A model generated the notes under the pieces. It worked only from the letters and a program-made list of their open reading frames with translations. It made no database searches and was not told the DNA's origin. A stretch of DNA of 64,000 nt, taken from Rhodothermus bifroesti (lineage in GTDB: Bacteria > Bacteroidota > Rhodothermia > Rhodothermales > Rhodothermaceae). Position 1 is the first letter of the stretch, and every line of letters starts with the position of its first letter. The stretch is from assembly GCF_017908595.1 (NCBI RefSeq), contig NZ_JAGKTL010000003.1, forward strand, positions 1 through 64,000, read 5' to 3'. Of this stretch, positions 47,332-54,507 are shown in pieces. The position numbers and the translations under genes are program-made.

Positions 47332-47799
47332 ATGACCCCAGAATACTTTATTCGGAAGGTGATCGTATCCGCTCAGGAGAACGTCCGGCGCGGGGGTGGT
47401 CCCTTTGCTGCCCTGGTCGTACACCATGGGGAGATTCTAGCCCTAGGCACCAACCGGGTAACCACCGACAACGACCCAACGGCACATGCAGAAATCGTGG
47501 CTATCCGCGAGGCCTGTCGTCAGCTGGGCCACTTTCAGCTTACCGGATGCGACTTATACACGTCCTGTGAACCCTGTCCAATGTGCCTAGGGGCCATCTA
47601 TTGGGCACGACCAGCACGGGTTTTCTACGCTGCCACGCGCTACGAAGCAGCTCGTGCCGGCTTCGACGATGCATTTATCTATGAAGAGCTGACGCGACCG
47701 GGTCCTGAGCGCCGCATTCCACTCATCCATGTCCCCGACGAAACCGCCTGGATGCCCTTTCAAGCCTGGCTTGACCACCCCGATCGCAAGCCTTATTGA
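47332..47799 (+). CDS. guaD: Guanine deaminase
   Basis: 155 residues of the CDA superfamily that hydrolyse guanine to xanthine. The zinc site is THAEIVAIREAC-like (HAE in DPTAHAEIVAIREA) plus SCEPCPMCLGAIYWARP. The C-terminal part (ARAGFDDAFIYEELTRPGPE, then PFQAWLDHPDRKPY) follows the Bacillus GuaD pattern closely and differs from tRNA adenosine deaminases. Its last 7 bases overlap the convergent regulator gene. Confidence 0.9.
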   Translation: MTPEYFIRKVIVSAQENVRRGGGPFAALVVHHGEILALGTNRVTTDNDPTAHAEIVAIREACRQLGHFQLTGCDLYTSCEPCPMCLGAIYWARPARVFYAATRYEAARAGFDDAFIYEELTRPGPERRIPLIHVPDETAWMPFQAWLDHPDRKPY

Positions 47800-48446
47800 G
47801 CTTTCAATGTCATAGGTGGGTTAAACGTATACGTACAGGCCGGACTGCCTTCGGGAATGTAGGCTACACGGCTGGTAGGCAGCCCCAACACGGCCTCAAA
47901 GAAACGCGCTTCCAAATAGCAAGGAAGTCGGGTATGCCGGACCGTTTCCGTGAACGGACAGTTGCATTCGCGAATCTCTAAACCTTGATCGTTGACCACA
48001 AGCTCGGGCATAAAACCTTCCTCTTCCAAAAAATCCCGCACCACGCTCAGTCGCGCTTGAAGCGTATGTGCCTCGTGCTGCGCTAGACGCCGCTCGATCT
48101 CCTGCAGACGCTCTTCCCAAAACTTCCGAAAGAAACGTTCTAAGAGCGCTTCGCCAGCCTCCTGCTTTAGGAATTGCAATAGCCGACCTAGAAGTATAGC
48201 ATCGCGATTGGGAAAAAGCTGGACGCCAGTCCTTGTGAGTCGGTAAAGCAAGCGCGGCCGGCCACGTCCATGGCGCTCCATAACATGCTGCACAAGCCCG
48301 TCTCGCTCAAGTTGGGTTAGATGCTCCCGAAGCGTCGGCCGCCTCAGTCCAGTAGCTGCTTCTGCTTCGCTCAGCGTAAGCTGCCCGCGACGCTTGAGCA
48401 AGTCTAGAAGCTGTTGCTTGGTATCCGAATGCAAAACTAATCCCAT
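47793..48446 (-). CDS. SufR-like Fe-S-sensing transcriptional regulator
   Basis: 217 residues. The N-terminal winged helix has TKQQLLDLLKRRGQLTLSEA, the recognition region GLRRPTLREHLTQLERDGLV and the wing RHGRGRPRLLYRLT. The C-terminal domain carries four Cys in the SufR arrangement: ECNCP, then LPC 13 residues later and SPACTY near the end. These could bind a [4Fe-4S] cluster and so sense NO, oxygen or cluster supply. It is divergent from the DUF2249/ric/DUF59/fdxA run, across 150 bases that hold an inverted repeat and a good promoter, so it most likely controls that run and itself. Direct evidence for a cluster is lacking. Confidence 0.85.
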   Translation of the reverse strand: MGLVLHSDTKQQLLDLLKRRGQLTLSEAEAATGLRRPTLREHLTQLERDGLVQHVMERHGRGRPRLLYRLTRTGVQLFPNRDAILLGRLLQFLKQEAGEALLERFFRKFWEERLQEIERRLAQHEAHTLQARLSVVRDFLEEEGFMPELVVNDQGLEIRECNCPFTETVRHTRLPCYLEARFFEAVLGLPTSRVAYIPEGSPACTYTFNPPMTLKAQ

Positions 48447-48466: not shown

Positions 48467-48580
48467 CTACTTAAAACTAAACGTTCTCGAAGGTTGTGTC
48501 AATAAAAAAGATTTTTTCCTTCTAAAACTTGACATGGCTCCCTGGTATTTCTACATTTAATCGTGTTTTGTCTTAAATAG
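48467..48580. promoter_or_regulatory. Divergent operator: long inverted repeat flanking the promoters
   Basis: CTACTTAAAACTAAAC (48467-48482) and GTTTTGTCTTAAATAG (48565-48580) are inverted copies matching at 13 of 16 positions. One lies near the regulator's start and one at the expected transcription start of the plus-strand run. The layout suggests two binding sites of the SufR-like protein. Confidence 0.5.
48529..48559 (+). promoter_or_regulatory. Candidate promoter of the nitrosative-stress gene run
   Basis: TTGACA (48529-48534), a 17-base spacer, then TACATT (48552-48557). The downstream box also reads TACATTTA, close to the Bacteroidota TAnnTTTG element. The implied start near 48564 falls at the right arm of the inverted repeat. 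Confidence 0.6.
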
Positions 48581-48596
48581 ATCTGCTACGTTAATT

Positions 48597-48839
48597 ATGG
48601 CAATGCAGACCGAAAGAACGCTAGACGTGCGGCCGATCCCGCCGCGCGAAAAGCATGCAACGATCTTTGCTACGTTTGATGCGCTGGCACCGGGTGAAGC
48701 TTTTGTACTGGTGAACGATCATGATCCGCGGCCTTTGCGCTACCAGTTTGAGTTTGAGCGAAGCGGGCAGTTTACCTGGGAGTATCTGGAGCAAGGGCCA
48801 GAAGTTTGGCGCGTAAGGATCGGACGCACGGCCTCATGA
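48597..48839 (+). CDS. DUF2249 domain protein
   Basis: 80 residues, the whole of one DUF2249 domain: LDVRPIPPREKHATIFATFD, GEAFVLVNDHDPRPLRYQFE and the terminal VWRVRIGR. These small TusA-like folds are often encoded beside hemerythrin, NnrS and denitrification genes; their biochemical role is unknown. It is the first gene of the run. Its stop overlaps the next start (ATGA). Confidence 0.88.
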   Translation: MAMQTERTLDVRPIPPREKHATIFATFDALAPGEAFVLVNDHDPRPLRYQFEFERSGQFTWEYLEQGPEVWRVRIGRTAS

Positions 48840-49507
48840 AGCTGCTGCTGAGTAGCGATGCGTTGCCAACGGCCTCGCTCGAGGTGCTAGGCGAAGCCTG
48901 TCGGCGCAAGGCACTGGCCGGACTGGAGTTAGTGCTCGGGTGTGGCCAGGGTCACCACTATGAGGCCTTGCGTTGCCCTGTTGAAGCTGGCGATGAAGTG
49001 GTCGTGCCACGGGTGCCTATTTATTGGCTAGCGCTACCGGGCCGCCCACGCCTTAGTGAACTCATGACTTGGGCTGGCGAAGCGCATCGGCTGGGTGCTG
49101 GCTTGTTGCTTTGGGAACCAGTCGAAGAATTGCCCCGGCCGGTTCGGGTAGCACTAGTGCATGGAAGTGATCCGGCTGCATTGGCTTTGGCGGTTCACTG
49201 GGCCCAAAGCCAGGGTGTGCATACTTGCTATCAGCCAGAGCCGGAGGTGCTGCGCCAGGGCGGTTGGGAGGCGGTTTTGCGGCAAACCCTGCCTACACTG
49301 GCCCATGTGCGCCTACCGGGCAGCGGTCCTGAGGGCCAAACCGCTGATGCGCCCACGGGCGTAGGCGCCTTGATGGCCCATCTAGCCCTAAAGGCCTATA
49401 AGGGCACCGTAGCCCTGATTCCTTCACGCCTTGAGCAGCTGCCGGCTTGGAAAGCTTGGCTACTCCGCCGTCGCGGTTGGGGTTGTGGTACCGCAACGGT
49501 TTGCTAA
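48836..49507 (+). CDS. Unrecognised protein, possibly TIM-barrel (xylose-isomerase-like)
   Basis: 223 residues, soluble. Alternating strand/helix periodicity, an AGLELVLGCGQGHHYEAL segment, and a C-terminal HVRLPGSGPEGQTADAPTG followed by a KAYKGTVALIPS strand recall sugar-phosphate isomerase/AP-endonuclease-type TIM barrels, though the protein is short and the usual metal ligands are not evident. A Cys pair lies at the extreme end (GWGCGTATVC). It is translationally coupled to the DUF2249 gene (ATGA). I cannot assign a function; its position ties it to the Fe-S repair run. Confidence 0.7.
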   Translation: MKLLLSSDALPTASLEVLGEACRRKALAGLELVLGCGQGHHYEALRCPVEAGDEVVVPRVPIYWLALPGRPRLSELMTWAGEAHRLGAGLLLWEPVEELPRPVRVALVHGSDPAALALAVHWAQSQGVHTCYQPEPEVLRQGGWEAVLRQTLPTLAHVRLPGSGPEGQTADAPTGVGALMAHLALKAYKGTVALIPSRLEQLPAWKAWLLRRRGWGCGTATVC

Positions 49508-49545
49508 GCTGCTTGCATTTGTTGGACCTACATCGTCTTACGCTT

Positions 49546-50256
49546 ATGCATCCTTTACTCAGCAAGACCCTTGGAGAGCTGGTTGCTGCCGACGAGCGGC
49601 GGGCAGCACTCTTTGACCGCTTGGGGCTGGATTACTGCTGTGGCGGGAGGCGCACGTTAGAGGTGGCCTGTCGCCAGCGCGGCCTAGATCCAGCCTCGGT
49701 TGCGGCTGTGCTGGAGGCTTTGGAGACTACGGAAACTTTGAAAGAGCCCGCTGCCGACTGGCAGACGCGGCCGCTGGCTGAATTGATCGACTACATTGTG
49801 CGCACGCATCATGCCTACCTGCGGCGGGAGCTGCCGCGCCTAAGTGCATTGATGGAGCGGGTTGCGCAAGTACATGGCCACCAGAGCACTTGGCTGCATG
49901 AAGCCCAGAAGGTTTTCGGGCAGCTCAAGCTAGAACTCGAGGCGCACCTGCGTAGCGAAGAAGAAGTAATCTTTCCTTTGATTCAAGCGCTAGAGCAAGG
50001 CGAGGTTTTGGCAGCTGCTGGGCTGGAGGCAGTGCTCGCGCAGGCCGAATCTGAGCACAATGCAGCAGGGGAGGCGCTCGACCGGCTGCGCACGCTTTCC
50101 GACAACTACCGTGTGCCCGAATGGGCCTGCAGCAGCTTTCAGGCGCTTTTGGAAGGCCTGGCCCAGCTCGAAACCGATATGCATCGCCATGTGCATCGGG
50201 AAAACAATGTGCTGTTTCCTAGAGCACGCCGTTTGATGGCAAGGCCTACCACCTGA
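49546..50256 (+). CDS. ric: Iron-sulfur cluster repair di-iron protein Ric (ScdA/YtfE/DnrN)
   Basis: 236 residues. The N-terminal ScdA_N domain carries the YCCGG motif (FDRLGLDYCCGGRRTLEVAC). The C-terminal hemerythrin-like domain provides His/Glu iron ligands (RTHHAYLRRELPRL, HLRSEEEVIFPLI, AESEHNAAGEAL, MHRHVHRENNVLFPRA). Ric proteins restore Fe-S clusters damaged by nitric oxide or peroxide and may release iron or reduce NO. The ATG at 49546 was chosen; it gives the family N-terminus. It sits third in the run and is its clearest functional marker. Confidence 0.95.
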   Translation: MHPLLSKTLGELVAADERRAALFDRLGLDYCCGGRRTLEVACRQRGLDPASVAAVLEALETTETLKEPAADWQTRPLAELIDYIVRTHHAYLRRELPRLSALMERVAQVHGHQSTWLHEAQKVFGQLKLELEAHLRSEEEVIFPLIQALEQGEVLAAAGLEAVLAQAESEHNAAGEALDRLRTLSDNYRVPEWACSSFQALLEGLAQLETDMHRHVHRENNVLFPRARRLMARPTT

Positions 50257-50293: not shown

Positions 50294-50617
50294 ATGAGCA
50301 CGCCTGTACCATCCCGACTCGAGCTGGTCGACCGCCTGCGCTTGGTGATCGATCCAGAAGTCGGGCTCAACATTGTAGATCTTGGATTGATTTACGATCT
50401 ACAGGTATCGCCTGAAGGTACCGTGGAGATCAAGTTGACAATGACCACGCCGGCTTGCCCAATGTCGAGTTATATCAAACACGAAGTAGGTAAGGTGCTG
50501 CAGCGCACCCCAGGCATCCGACGAGGTATTATTGAACTGGTCTGGGATCCCCCTTGGTCGCCCTACATGATCGACCCGGAAGTGCGGCGTTACCGTTTTC
50601 CTATGTATGCACGCTGA
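50294..50617 (+). CDS. DUF59/MIP18 family Fe-S assembly factor (SufT-like)
   Basis: 107 residues of the MIP18/PaaD/SufT family: RLRLVIDPEVGLNIVDLGLI, IKLTMTTPACPMSSYI with the conserved Cys, and VWDPPWSPYMI. Members help mature Fe-S proteins in the cytoplasm. It lies between ric and the second DUF2249 gene, which agrees with a cluster-repair role. Confidence 0.93.
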   Translation: MSTPVPSRLELVDRLRLVIDPEVGLNIVDLGLIYDLQVSPEGTVEIKLTMTTPACPMSSYIKHEVGKVLQRTPGIRRGIIELVWDPPWSPYMIDPEVRRYRFPMYAR

Positions 50618-50630
50618 AAGGCAACCCACT

Positions 50631-50918
50631 ATGGCCAATCAAATTCCAACGTTTTTGGCAACGTTGCCGGCATCGCACTTTGTAGAACTGGACGTGCGGC
50701 CGATCCTGCGCAGCGGCGGTGAGCCGTTTACACTGATCATGGAGACAGCAAGCCGTGTTCCTCCCGGTCACGTACTGCGCCTTCGGGCTACGTTTAAGCC
50801 GGTGCCTCTTTTGGGCGTCATGCGTGTCAAAGGCTGGGCCCACTGGATCGCGCACGGTGAAGGAGATGACTGGGAGGTCTGGTTTTATCGCTTAGACGAC
50901 TTCAAAAACGCAACATAG
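50631..50918 (+). CDS. Second DUF2249 domain protein
   Basis: 95 residues with the DUF2249 pattern ([49 protein letters not shown]). It is divergent from the first DUF2249 protein of the run, so this is not a recent duplication. The ATG at 50631 is preceded by a GAAAGG-type ribosome site. An upstream ATG at 50607 would overlap the DUF59 gene. Confidence 0.85.
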
Positions 50919-50926
50919 GACGTGCT

Positions 50927-51292
50927 ATGCCCTACGTCGTCACCGAACCCTGCATTAACTGCAAATACACCGACTGCGTCGAAGTATGCCCGGTGGATGC
51001 CTTCTACGAAGGACCGAATTTTTTGGCGATTCACCCGGATGAGTGCATCGATTGCAATGCTTGCGTGCCGGTCTGCCCTACAGAAGCGATTTATCCGGAA
51101 GACGAGGTGCCAGAAGCATGGGCACACTACATTGAATGGAATCGCTATCTTGCTGCGCAGTGGAAAGCTCAGGGGTTTAACATTACGGAAAAGAAAGATC
51201 CGCTGCCGGATGCTGAAGCCTGGCAACACCGGCCCAAGTCGGAGAAAGATATTTTGACCTGGGACCTGCGAGAGGCCTCGTCAAATGCGTAG
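50927..51292 (+). CDS. fdxA: Ferredoxin FdxA (3Fe-4S / 4Fe-4S)
   Basis: 121 residues. The N-terminal dicluster domain has [18 protein letters not shown] (Cx2C-x4-C-x3-CP) and [16 protein letters not shown]. The long C-terminal tail ([20 protein letters not shown]) is typical of the Azotobacter-type FdxA/7Fe ferredoxins. It is a small electron carrier, plausibly the donor for the repair or reductive activities encoded around it. It overlaps the CopD-like gene by 8 bases. Confidence 0.95.
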
Positions 51293-51785
51293 CTGGTACT
51301 TGTTTTCGGTTTGGCTTCATCTTCTGGCGGCTGCGATCTGGATCGGATCGATGGTTTTTCTGGGGGCCGCCGTGATACCCCTGTTGCGCAAACCGGAATT
51401 TCTGCCTGTGCGTACGGCGATGCTCTACCAGCTTGGCCTGCGTTTTCGTTGGTTAGGTTGGATTGTACTAGGCGTGCTGCTGGTGACGGGTATCCTCAAC
51501 GTTGGCTTTCGCGGCTACACGTGGGCGGATTTCTGGCAAGGGACGCTGTGGCAAGGGCCCTGGGGACGTATGCTGGCCTGGAAGCTTGTGCTGGTGTTGC
51601 TTGTGATGGTCATGAGTGCCGTGCACGACTTTTACTTGGGACCGCGCACAATGCAGCTCCTAGCGCGCGGCGAAGCCTCAGCTGAAAACCTGCGGCGCAC
51701 GGCCAGCTACTTAGGACGACTGATGACGCTGTTGTCCTTAGCCATCCTGGCACTGGCGGTGTTGTTGGTGCGCGGAGGTGTTTAA
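51285..51785 (+). CDS. CopD-like four-helix membrane protein
   Basis: 166 residues with four hydrophobic helices. [40 protein letters not shown] and the paired His residues in helices 1 and 3 fit the CopD/DUF2214-like group of inner-membrane proteins that may bind haem or copper. It overlaps fdxA (8 bases) and precedes the cupin by 9 bases. Confidence 0.75.
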
Positions 51786-51794
51786 TCCAAAACG

Positions 51795-52190
51795 ATGAAA
51801 GCCATGGATCCCTTTATCCTAAAGGCAACCGAAAGGGTACAATTTGCACGCGACCGGTTTCAGCCAGTCCCGTTGGTCCAAAACAATCGGCTTAAGGTGC
51901 AACTTATTGGTTTTGAGCCCGGGCAGCAAATTCCTTTGCACACGCCGGGCGTAGACTTGGTGCTAACCGTCTTGCAAGGGCATGGGCTGGTCATTGCCGG
52001 AGAGAAAGAGGGGGTTGTGGGACCAGGATCAGTGATTTTTGTGCCGGCAGGCGTTGCTCGAAGCGTTCGGGCGCATACGCGCCTGGTAGCGCTAGCGGTA
52101 GTTTCGCCACCCCCTACGGCATCCGATCACGTAGAAGTAGAAGCTGCTCTGGAGCGGGCTGAAATGACTTCTTTTGATTGTTCATCGTAA
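51795..52190 (+). CDS. Small cupin-domain protein
   Basis: 131 residues forming one cupin barrel: FEPGQQIPLHTPGVDLVLTV (motif 1, with only one clear His) and GPGSVIFVPAGVARSVRA (motif 2). The usual HxH pair is reduced to IPLHTPG, so metal binding is uncertain. Cupins like this are common in nnrS/ric clusters. Its stop codon lies inside a hairpin that also includes the next start. Confidence 0.8.
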   Translation: MKAMDPFILKATERVQFARDRFQPVPLVQNNRLKVQLIGFEPGQQIPLHTPGVDLVLTVLQGHGLVIAGEKEGVVGPGSVIFVPAGVARSVRAHTRLVALAVVSPPPTASDHVEVEAALERAEMTSFDCSS

Positions 52191-52203
52191 AAATACGATG
52201 AAC
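52180..52203 (+). promoter_or_regulatory. Perfect hairpin joining the cupin stop and DUF488 start
   Basis: GTTCATCGTA (52180-52189), AAAA loop, TACGATGAAC (52194-52203). The 10-bp stem contains the DUF488 ATG (52198-52200) and most of the cupin stop. An alternative stem TACGA (52194-52198) / TCGTA (52206-52210) is mutually exclusive with it. This could make DUF488 translation depend on ribosomes finishing the cupin gene. Confidence 0.55.
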
Positions 52204-52587
52204 ATTCGTATTAAACGTGTTTATGAGCCGCCGGCAGTCGAGGATGGGTTTCGGGTTCTGGTGGATCGGCTTTGGCCACGCGGATTAAAGAAAAGCGCTG
52301 CCGCGCTGGATGCCTGGCGCAAGGATATGGCCCCCAGTGATGCCCTGCGGCGCTGGTTTGGTCATGATCCGTCGCGTTGGGAAGCCTTTCGGCGTCGGTA
52401 TGAGGCCGAGCTGGAGGCGAACCCAGAAGGTGTTCGCTGGCTGCTTGAGCAAGCTCAGCGAGGACGGCTGACGCTGTGCTACAGCGCAAAAGACGCGGAG
52501 CACAACCAGGCCGTAGTGCTGCGGGATTATCTGCTGCGCAAAGCGTTGGAGAAGCCGCAATGCGGATACAGCGCTTCCCGTTTATAG
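52198..52587 (+). CDS. DUF488 family protein
   Basis: 129 residues. MNIRIKRVYEPPAVEDGFRV, LVDRLWPRGLKKSAAALDAW, RRWFGHDPSRWEAFRRRYEA and LTLCYSAKDAEHNQAVVLRD match DUF488 (YeaO-like). No enzymatic activity is established; the family is frequent in redox and metal stress contexts. The start is buried in a hairpin. Its 3' end overlaps the NnrS-like gene by 28 bases. Confidence 0.88.
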   Translation: MNIRIKRVYEPPAVEDGFRVLVDRLWPRGLKKSAAALDAWRKDMAPSDALRRWFGHDPSRWEAFRRRYEAELEANPEGVRWLLEQAQRGRLTLCYSAKDAEHNQAVVLRDYLLRKALEKPQCGYSASRL

Positions 52588-53651
52588 CTTTGGGTATGGT
52601 TGCCCTACTGACCGGCCTAGCTGCGGGGTTGGAGCGGCTGGGGTGGCGGTTTGGGGTAGATGTCACGTGGGCCTTGCTTCACGGGCCGCTTATGGTGGCA
52701 GGGTTTTTTGGCACGTTGATTAGCCTAGAACGGGCTGTTGCCCTGGACCGTCGTTGGGCCTACGCAGTCCCCCTGCTGTGTGGTCTGGGTGCTGTGCTGA
52801 CTTTAGCGAAAAGTCAGCTTGTGGGAGCGTTGTTACTTACGCTAGGCAGCCTGGGGCTGATAGGAATCTTTGGCGCAGCACTGCATATTCAGCGCGCGTC
52901 GTTTTTGCTGGTTATGGCAGCTGGAGCGGTTGCGTTGAGCGTGGGCAATGTCGCCTGGTTTTGGGGGCAACCTGTACCCTTGGTTGTGCTGTGGTGGATG
53001 GCGTTTTTGGTGCTGACGATTGCGGGTGAGCGGCTTGAACTTAGCCGCATGCTCTTGCACGGCGCGCACGTGGAGCGCTGGTTTTTAGGTATTGTTGGCC
53101 TATTGGGATTGGGATTGGTGCTAAGCTTTGTCAATGCGCCGCTTGCCTGGCGCCTTACGGGAGGTGGGCTACTGCTGCTGGCCTTTTGGCTATTGCGCTA
53201 CGATGTGGCTCGGCATACGGTACGTCAATCCGGATTGACGCGCTTTATCGCTTGGTGTCTGCTGCTGGGCTACGGCTGGCTAATGGTAGGGGGGATGGTC
53301 ATGCTCTATAGGGGGCAGCTTGTAGCCGGTCCCTGGTACGATGCCGCACTGCATGCTATATTTGTAGGATTCGTTTTTAGCATGGTGTTTGGCCATGCGC
53401 CGATCATTTTTCCTTCGGTGTTAGGCGTGCCGGTGGCTTACCGACCATTTTTCTACGTTCATTTGACCTTGCTGCATGGGGCGCTCCTCGTCCGGATTAT
53501 AGGCGACGTGGCCGGATTGTGGGCGTGGCGGCGATGGGGTGGGTTGCTGAATGCAATGGCGATTGTACTTTTTCTCGCCGTTACCCTGATCACAACGTGG
53601 GTAGCGCAGCGGCAGCTGCGTGCACAAGCGACGTCGGATACGTATGCCTAA
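52560..53651 (+). CDS. NnrS-like multi-helix membrane protein
   Basis: About 363 residues with some eleven transmembrane helices. Conserved-looking His in LLHGPLMVAGFFGTLISLER, AALHAIFVGFVFSMVFGHAP and YVHLTLLHGALLVRI resemble the haem- and copper-binding NnrS family, which is linked to nitric-oxide tolerance and denitrification. The match is to the pattern rather than full family identity, so NnrS-like is used. The ATG at 52560 starts within the DUF488 gene, and the stop overlaps the next gene by 8 bases. Confidence 0.75.
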   Translation: MRIQRFPFIALGMVALLTGLAAGLERLGWRFGVDVTWALLHGPLMVAGFFGTLISLERAVALDRRWAYAVPLLCGLGAVLTLAKSQLVGALLLTLGSLGLIGIFGAALHIQRASFLLVMAAGAVALSVGNVAWFWGQPVPLVVLWWMAFLVLTIAGERLELSRMLLHGAHVERWFLGIVGLLGLGLVLSFVNAPLAWRLTGGGLLLLAFWLLRYDVARHTVRQSGLTRFIAWCLLLGYGWLMVGGMVMLYRGQLVAGPWYDAALHAIFVGFVFSMVFGHAPIIFPSVLGVPVAYRPFFYVHLTLLHGALLVRIIGDVAGLWAWRRWGGLLNAMAIVLFLAVTLITTWVAQRQLRAQATSDTYA

Positions 53652-54066
53652 ATTGTCGCGTTGGTATGTAAAAACAGCCTTAGGGTACCTGGCGCTGGCG
53701 CTGCTTTTGGGCGTAGCGCTGGTTTGGCCCACCGAAACGGCTGGATGGCGCGTCTGGCAAGGCCTTTTTTGGCCCGTCTGGATTCACCTGCTAACGGTAG
53801 GCTGGCTGACGCAACTGATTTTTGGGGTGGCATTTTGGCTTTTCCCTCGGCACTCGCGCATGCGGCCTTACGGTCCGCAGCAGTTAGCCTGGACCGCCTA
53901 TCCGCTGCTGAATGCAGGCATCCTGCTGCGGCTTTTTGCCGAGCCAGCTATTGCCTGGACGGCATCGCCCCTATGGCGGGGCCTTGCGGGACTTTCGGCT
54001 GCATTTCAGTGGGTAGCGGGAACGTTAATGGCTGTGTATCTATGGACTCGGGTCAAGCAGCGCTAA
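53644..54066 (+). CDS. Four-helix membrane protein A, oxidase-subunit-I-like helix
   Basis: 140 residues, four hydrophobic helices. Helix 2 reads WIHLLTVGWLTQLIFGVAFW and ends in LFPR. The His, Gly-Trp and LFPR pattern recalls a haem-binding helix in haem-copper oxidase and nitric-oxide reductase subunits. The full catalytic His set of such enzymes is absent, so it cannot be an oxidase alone. It may bind haem or form a complex with its neighbours. It starts 8 bases inside the NnrS-like gene. Confidence 0.7.
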   Translation: MPKLSRWYVKTALGYLALALLLGVALVWPTETAGWRVWQGLFWPVWIHLLTVGWLTQLIFGVAFWLFPRHSRMRPYGPQQLAWTAYPLLNAGILLRLFAEPAIAWTASPLWRGLAGLSAAFQWVAGTLMAVYLWTRVKQR

Positions 54067-54069
54067 GCT

Positions 54070-54507
54070 ATGCCGCGCGTAAGCTATTGGATGGTTCGGC
54101 TAGCCCTCGTGCATCTGTTTTTGGGCTTTACGGTAGGAGCCTGGCTGCTGCTCTACAAGGCACAGTGGCTAGCAGGCATTCCGGGCTTGCGGGCGTTGCA
54201 TGTGGAGCTGGTGCTGTTAGGCTTTATGGTGCAACTGGCCGTGTCGGTAGCTTGGTGGATCCTGCCGCGCGTGCGTGGTGAACGTCCCGCAGATCAAGGC
54301 GCTTGGATAGCCGGTGTGCTGTTTACGCTGGGCGTGTGGTTCGTTGGCCTTGGGGCTGTCGGTAGCATTCCGAAACTTCAATGGGCTGGCCGTATTCTTG
54401 AATTGATGGGCCTTATGGGTTGGGCGCGATTGCTCTGGCCTAGAATCCTGGCCGCTAACCGCCACCATGCAGCACAGCCGGAAGGCACCAGCTCTGAGGC
54501 ACCGTAG
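54070..54507 (+). CDS. Four-helix membrane protein B, paralogue of the preceding gene
   Basis: 145 residues with four predicted helices and a polar tail. Helix 2 contains HVELVLLGFMVQLAVSVAWW followed by ILPR, matching the helix-2 pattern of the gene just upstream. The two genes look like an ancient tandem duplication. Three bases separate them. The stop overlaps the next possible start (TAGTG). Function unknown; a role with NnrS-like haem chemistry is inferred from context only. Confidence 0.7.
   Translation: MPRVSYWMVRLALVHLFLGFTVGAWLLLYKAQWLAGIPGLRALHVELVLLGFMVQLAVSVAWWILPRVRGERPADQGAWIAGVLFTLGVWFVGLGAVGSIPKLQWAGRILELMGLMGWARLLWPRILAANRHHAAQPEGTSSEAP

Follow-up and report, generated by a model that had tools for sequence, protein, structure and literature searches.

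In Rhodothermus bifroesti, the gene for a SufR-like regulator and a run of Fe-S repair genes diverge from a shared intergenic region of 150 bp (65% A+T), which raises the question of what site in this region might serve to control them. We analyzed the locus within a stretch of 64,000 nucleotides, hereafter the window. A first-pass annotation had singled out an inverted repeat at 48467-48580 that spans the divergent promoters, and had read it as a sign of autoregulation together with repression of the run.

The inverted repeat across the divergent promoters

48467-48482, no strand: arm 1 of the inverted repeat, CTACTTAAAACTAAAC, which overlaps the regulator -10; pairing not kept
48474-48479, minus strand: putative regulator -10, TAGTTT (AAACTA on the plus strand), kept in 6/6 aligned species
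48497-48502, minus strand: putative regulator -35, TTGACA, 17 bases from the TAGTTT -10
48529-48557, plus strand: run promoter, TTGACA-N17-TACATT, kept in the alignment, with a weaker -10 in L004
48565-48580, no strand: arm 2 of the inverted repeat, GTTTTGTCTTAAATAG, at the presumed transcription start of the run, just past the run -10

The repeat exists as described: the coordinates and 16-bp length of the arms, their 13/16 pairing, and the 82 bases that separate them all prove exact, and the TTGACA-N17-TACATT promoter is present at 48529-48557, in a scan for which 0.9 such sites are expected by chance across the 1.8 kb searched. Arm 1, which had been placed near the start of the regulator, more precisely overlaps the putative regulator -10 (AAACTA, 48474-48479). 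While this geometry and the promoter stand, the repeat is no better than chance expectation. A pair with at least 13/16 matches arises in 12/300 dinucleotide shuffles of the intergenic region, and a pair as good is found in 21/852 overlapping 150-bp slices of the window (among slices with at least 58% A+T, 1/6 hold a comparable pair), where both shuffle and slice rates are uncorrected for other arm lengths and for the pair having been picked out.

By the annotation's own reckoning, arms that are not kept at orthologous loci would refute its reading, and this is the case. In the aligned columns of six intergenic regions, pairing is 6, 5, 7, 9, and 6 of 16 in L002-L006, compared to 13 in the window, so that no more than 5-9/16 is retained in 5/5 congeners. 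Mean pairwise identity across the six species is 78% for arm 2 and 65% for arm 1, versus 92% for the block between the promoters. On this alignment, each arm is partly kept for its own reason, while the pairing between them is not kept, and the 16-mer repeat is most likely a coincidental pairing of the regulator -10 with sequence transcribed early in the run. That the repeat itself is the operator, with two dimers or half-sites ~100 bp apart bridging the DNA, has the 13/16 pairing in the window in its favor, but because this pairing drops in all five congeners, and with the chance rates and a -10 element that accounts for arm 1 also against it, we consider it very unlikely and reject it.

A second conserved stretch (48558-48580) lies directly after the run -10 and overlaps arm 2. 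In the run sense, it reads GGTGTC...TTTTGTCC in the congeners, and GGTGTC is present in L007 too; it could be an early-transcript element or a second regulatory element.

The regulator and the Fe-S repair run

47793-48446, minus strand: SufR-like winged-helix regulator of 217 aa (open reading frame; ArsR-type HTH; C161, C163, C176, C204)
48597-48839, plus strand: DUF2249 protein, encoded first in the run (PF10006, E 2.4e-34)
48842-49507, plus strand: conserved protein of 221 aa with no assigned family, kept in L023, L024, and L027
49447-50256, plus strand: RIC, a YtfE/ScdA-type di-iron Fe-S repair protein (TIGR03652, 241.7 bits, above the cut-off of 204.7)
50294-50617, plus strand: DUF59/SufT-like Fe-S assembly protein (PF01883; below NCBIfam cut-offs)
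50607-50918, plus strand: second DUF2249 protein (PF10006)
50927-51292, plus strand: FdxA-type ferredoxin (NF045490, 142 bits, cut-off 135)
51285-52587, plus strand: CopD/DUF4149 membrane protein, cupin, and DUF488 protein (Pfam matches; same order in L023)

The RIC assignment is supported by the presence of both ScdA_N and hemerythrin domains in addition to the TIGR03652 score; its true start is probably inside the 49447-50256 frame. The 221-aa product has no Pfam or NCBIfam match. It sits between DUF2249 and RIC in L023 and L024 and after DUF2249 in L027, and comparable coding sequence is found after a copy of the regulator in L116. The gene order of the run is the same in L023, with the exception of an extra DUF2249 gene after RIC. 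In L025, the first DUF2249 protein, the 221-aa protein, FdxA, and DUF488 have no match, which puts RIC first there. Three adjacent membrane-type proteins at 52551-54507, which lack Pfam and NCBIfam matches, are probably the far end of the run; the trio is kept in L023 and L025, and its first member is also found in L044-L046. An NnrS label for 52551-53651 was dropped for want of Pfam or NCBIfam support.

Of the 6 other Rhodothermus genomes, 5 encode a close ortholog of the regulator. The regulator and RIC occur together in 6/7 genomes of the genus; the seventh, G005, lacks both, but it is a draft of 92% completeness in which absences could be gaps. Across the phylum, 34/394 genomes have a match to the regulator at 1e-20 or better. 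Ortholog neighbors include RIC, DUF2249, and FdxA genes: at least one run gene is found in 22/22 neighborhoods and RIC in 15/22, where the 22 are part of the collected loci and include two that were each fetched twice (L026/L033 and L028/L035). The distant paralog loci L031 and L032 have no run gene. In L039 (7501-9687) and L040 (7501-9689), genes whose sequence looks like that of cytochrome c nitrite reductase NrfHA are divergent from the regulator and its RIC gene. One contig, CANLSR010000002.1, carries two regulator copies ~55 kb apart (L034 and L037), one beside DUF2249/FdxA and the other beside a molybdopterin oxidoreductase and RIC.

The regulator is SufR-like in the wide sense, combining a winged helix at its N-terminus with cysteines spaced x12/x27 in its C-terminal part. 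Its full-length match to the SufR equivalog model TIGR02702 is weak (58.7 bits) and does not reach the cut-off of 178.8. The four cysteines (C161, C163, C176, and C204) are invariant in 10/10 aligned orthologs. The predicted structure (mean pLDDT 79, pTM 0.57) suggests that the winged helix is followed by a middle region of helices and a small C-terminal portion of alpha/beta type. A fold search with this model yields 29 PDB matches (E ≤ 0.001), mainly winged-helix DNA-binding proteins, with TM-scores by query length of at most about 0.3 and no informative PDB match for the C-terminal domain. NsrR is an Rrf2-type protein, a family different from that of the regulator here, which has no Rrf2 domain among its Pfam matches (E ≤ 0.001). 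The likeness to proteobacterial NsrR would be one of role; the available parts of two papers describe NsrR as a repressor of the RIC gene (ytfE/dnrN) in the nitrogen-oxide response (PMC1274295, PMC9268430).

Cyanobacterial SufR (Synechocystis sll0088) shares the winged-helix N-terminus and the cysteine-bearing C-terminus with the regulator, along with the weak full-length match, and is described, in the portions of text available, as repressing both a divergent operon and itself (PMC13421787, PMC8593673). It differs in cysteine pattern (C-x12-C-x13-C-x14-C, compared to C-x1-C-x12-C-x27-C here) and in gene context, as the regulator here is next to RIC/DUF2249 and has no linkage to a suf operon, with sufB located at G000:C4:93333-94724 and the regulator on C3. 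The cyanobacterial SufR box is given as CAAC-N6-GTTG in the same partial texts (PMC8593673, PMC13421787). This motif is absent from the intergenic region in all six species; the earlier remark that the sequence does not resemble this box holds, and we reject the box as the operator.

In M. tuberculosis, the actinobacterial SufR Rv1460 has the x12/x27 spacing, such that C163/C176/C204 here correspond to C203/C216/C244 there, and a DUF59/SufT gene belongs to the operon under control in M. tuberculosis and at our locus alike. The two differ in that Rv1460 controls suf biogenesis whereas the run here consists of Fe-S repair genes, and in the extra cysteine C161 of the present regulator. From the sections available, Rv1460 needs C203, C216, and C244 to complement its deletion, while the cysteine variants all still repressed a reporter equally (PMC6034842). 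The 4Fe-4S form of M. tuberculosis SufR is described as repressing, with repression lost on NO or ROS or on cluster loss, and SufT as binding SufR, again in partial text (PMC9045647). By analogy with these proteins, the C-terminal cysteines of the regulator would hold an Fe-S cluster.

A conserved block between the two promoters

48497-48534, no strand: conserved inter-promoter block, comprising a back-to-back pair of TTGACA -35 boxes and their 26-bp spacer
48506-48523, dyad centered at 48514.5, GG-N6-YC on the minus strand: preferred candidate operator, whose axis recurs in L039 and L040 under TTGACA anchoring; permutations mixed
48508-48530, minus strand: alternative dyad AAGnTTT-N9-AAAnCTT, scoring about equal to the preferred axis

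Read on the minus strand from 48534 down to 48497, the block is TGTCAAGTTTTAGAAGGAAAAAATCTTTTTTATTGACA. Its 92% mean identity over the six species corresponds to 32/38 invariant columns, a conservation that is in part simply that of the -35 boxes; as an internal control, identity is 51% over the 32 columns that separate arm 2 from the block in the alignment. The block is kept in L005 although the first run gene differs there (RIC first in L025/L005). It is placed so that a single dimer bound there could extend over both -35 boxes.

Within the block, the degenerate dyad GG-N6-YC lies seven bases from the regulator -35. It forms a perfect 6+6 dyad in L004 (AAAAGG-AAAAAA-CCTTTT) and 4/6 pairs in the window (AGAAGG-AAAAAA-TCTTTT), and one of its pairs is G-C in L005 and L006 and A-T in L003 and L004. 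Related stretches are found upstream of orthologs in L007, L034, L009, L010, L041-L043, L056, and L108, and 15/15 tabulated sequences have the core G-C pair. In the Balneolales loci L039 and L040, the regulator TTGACA is preceded by the palindrome AACGGTNNNTACCGNTT, again with a seven-base gap between CC and TTGACA, and when these two are anchored on TTGACA alone, the best or joint-best dyad axis is the one proposed for Rhodothermus. The palindrome has one copy in each of three genomes, although 14 fixed bases are rare anyway, so that this count speaks only to the absence of other exact copies.

Permutation of alignment columns gives a mixed picture for sequences that were chosen and aligned by eye. 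With 13 sequences, the best axis is reached by 495/2000 permutations (482/2000 on the inner part), compared to 1110/2000 for the six Rhodothermus alone, 113/2000 with one sequence per clade, and 168/1000 with clade weighting. With L034 added (placed one base off the other sequences at TCAA), the best axis is reached by 149, 153, 94, and 4 of 400 at 5, 7, 9, and 12 pairs and is that of 48508-48530 at 7, 9, and 12 pairs; the preferred axis (48506-48523) is reached by 174, 346, 208, and 23 of 400. With L039/L040 added, the symmetry is reached by 52, 68, 40, and 2 of 500 at the same pair numbers. Here the second axis (48508-48530) scores alike, and only the longest form (12 pairs) stands out. These tests leave out L038, which has no TTGACA for anchoring, and loci with no such element seen upstream: L008/L035, L036, L037, L054, L055, L057, L110, L114, and L115, the distant relatives L011 and L074-L076, and Balneolaceae loci with another gene close upstream of the regulator (L044-L046, L058-L073). 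The distant relatives L012-L022 were also omitted, with their upstream regions unread. The block is well supported on these comparisons; the operator axis within it is less certain, and we take 48506-48523 as the most likely candidate.

The form of the second axis, CAAGNTTTN9AAANCTT, was also scanned for in 8 genomes at up to one mismatch. Outside the regulator region, zero-mismatch matches consist of one in G000 and one at G006:C20, the latter being a second contig of the same locus. The lone G000 match adjoins a gene that reads as MerR-type, and its CTTGTAG...CTACAAG resembles a MerR-type site. Three of the one-mismatch G000 matches were inspected, and 3/3 are inside long reading frames; another one-mismatch match is at G000:C5:109674. 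A multi-target regulon in G000 for this motif is rejected, as the inspected matches are a MerR-like site or lie inside reading frames. In the draft genome G006, the same intergenic region occurs with a small difference on two contigs (L082 on C20 and L026 on C159), so the duplicate is a strain variant or an assembly overlap.

The block could alternatively be kept purely as a promoter, with two -35 boxes and shared A/T-rich upstream elements for RNA polymerase, with regulator binding at another site, or none here. The TTGACA boxes at both ends, the A/T-rich middle, and a dyad that is not significant in most tests are what this reading would predict. It does not readily account for a 26-bp spacer that is nearly invariant base by base, beyond A/T-richness, with GG and CTT kept, nor for the similarly arranged element that precedes orthologs in other families and has G/C-rich sequence in place of the A-tract. 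We regard a promoter-only block as rather unlikely.

Proposed control of the run

We propose, as an evenly balanced judgment, that a SufR-like dimer on 48497-48534 represses its own gene and the DUF2249-RIC-DUF59-FdxA run until its cluster is damaged, with the inverted repeat being due to chance. In this proposal, a dimer of the adjacent regulator, its C-terminal cysteines holding an Fe-S cluster, would bind the central block and block RNA polymerase at both -35 boxes, such that the regulator gene and the run would both be repressed. NO or oxidants would damage the cluster, the protein would release the DNA, and Fe-S repair would be switched on, with the run repairing Fe-S centers. The DUF59 protein may help to reload the sensor, by analogy with SufT-SufR binding in M. 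tuberculosis. In this scheme, binding of the regulator to DNA, its cluster, repression as the direction of control, and NO as the signal are inferred.

The wider idea of the first-pass annotation, autoregulation plus repression of the run, gains support even though its arms are not borne out as the operator: a single regulator for both is favored because the SufR-like regulator is divergent from the run and co-present with RIC, and because a conserved element spans the -35 boxes. The conservation of the block, the loss of the repeat, the gene family, and the gene association are observed. In favor of our proposal are the retention of the block despite a changed first gene, the Balneolales palindrome on the same axis, and the 2/500 permutations at 12 pairs. 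Counting against it are the weak symmetry at 5, 7, and 9 pairs, a second axis that scores alike, the many orthologs with no recognizable element, a SufR model match far below the cut-off, and the Rv1460 cysteine variants that still repress a reporter.

The regulator may also act from the block with another signal or sign, as a metal or thiol sensor, an apo-form binder, or an activator like some Fe-S regulators. In favor of this, ArsR-type proteins with cysteines are often metal sensors, and the regulator is known from its sequence. A site between two -35 boxes nonetheless suits repression of both genes, the run is an Fe-S damage gene set, and the cysteine spacing is that of SufR, and we judge this reading to be improbable.

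Returning to repression by a cluster-bearing dimer, we extend the proposal more tentatively, with the balance somewhat against it, to a SufR-like branch in Rhodothermus and relatives up to Balneolales that would act as an Fe-S (probably NO) sensor controlling RIC-DUF2249-FdxA through its own operator, GG-N6-CC, between or beside the -35 boxes. DUF2249 genes are described in partial text as going up in haloarchaeal denitrification (PMC11218638). In searches of open-access full text, no report of a SufR-type regulator of RIC genes was recognizable from the titles and abstract openings of the papers listed, and the name SufR is absent from a 2005 survey of nitrogen-oxide regulons (PMC1274295) and from a review of RIC (PMC9268430).

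The inverted repeat as first described is ordinary, and what is plausibly new here is a SufR-like regulator with a conserved inter-promoter element before Fe-S repair genes. A vague 114-bp feature is replaced by an exact 38-bp footprint target. If the proposal is true, SufR-type regulators would not be confined to suf biogenesis, and the same type of sensor would tie Fe-S damage to repair instead of biogenesis in lineages with a little-studied NO response.
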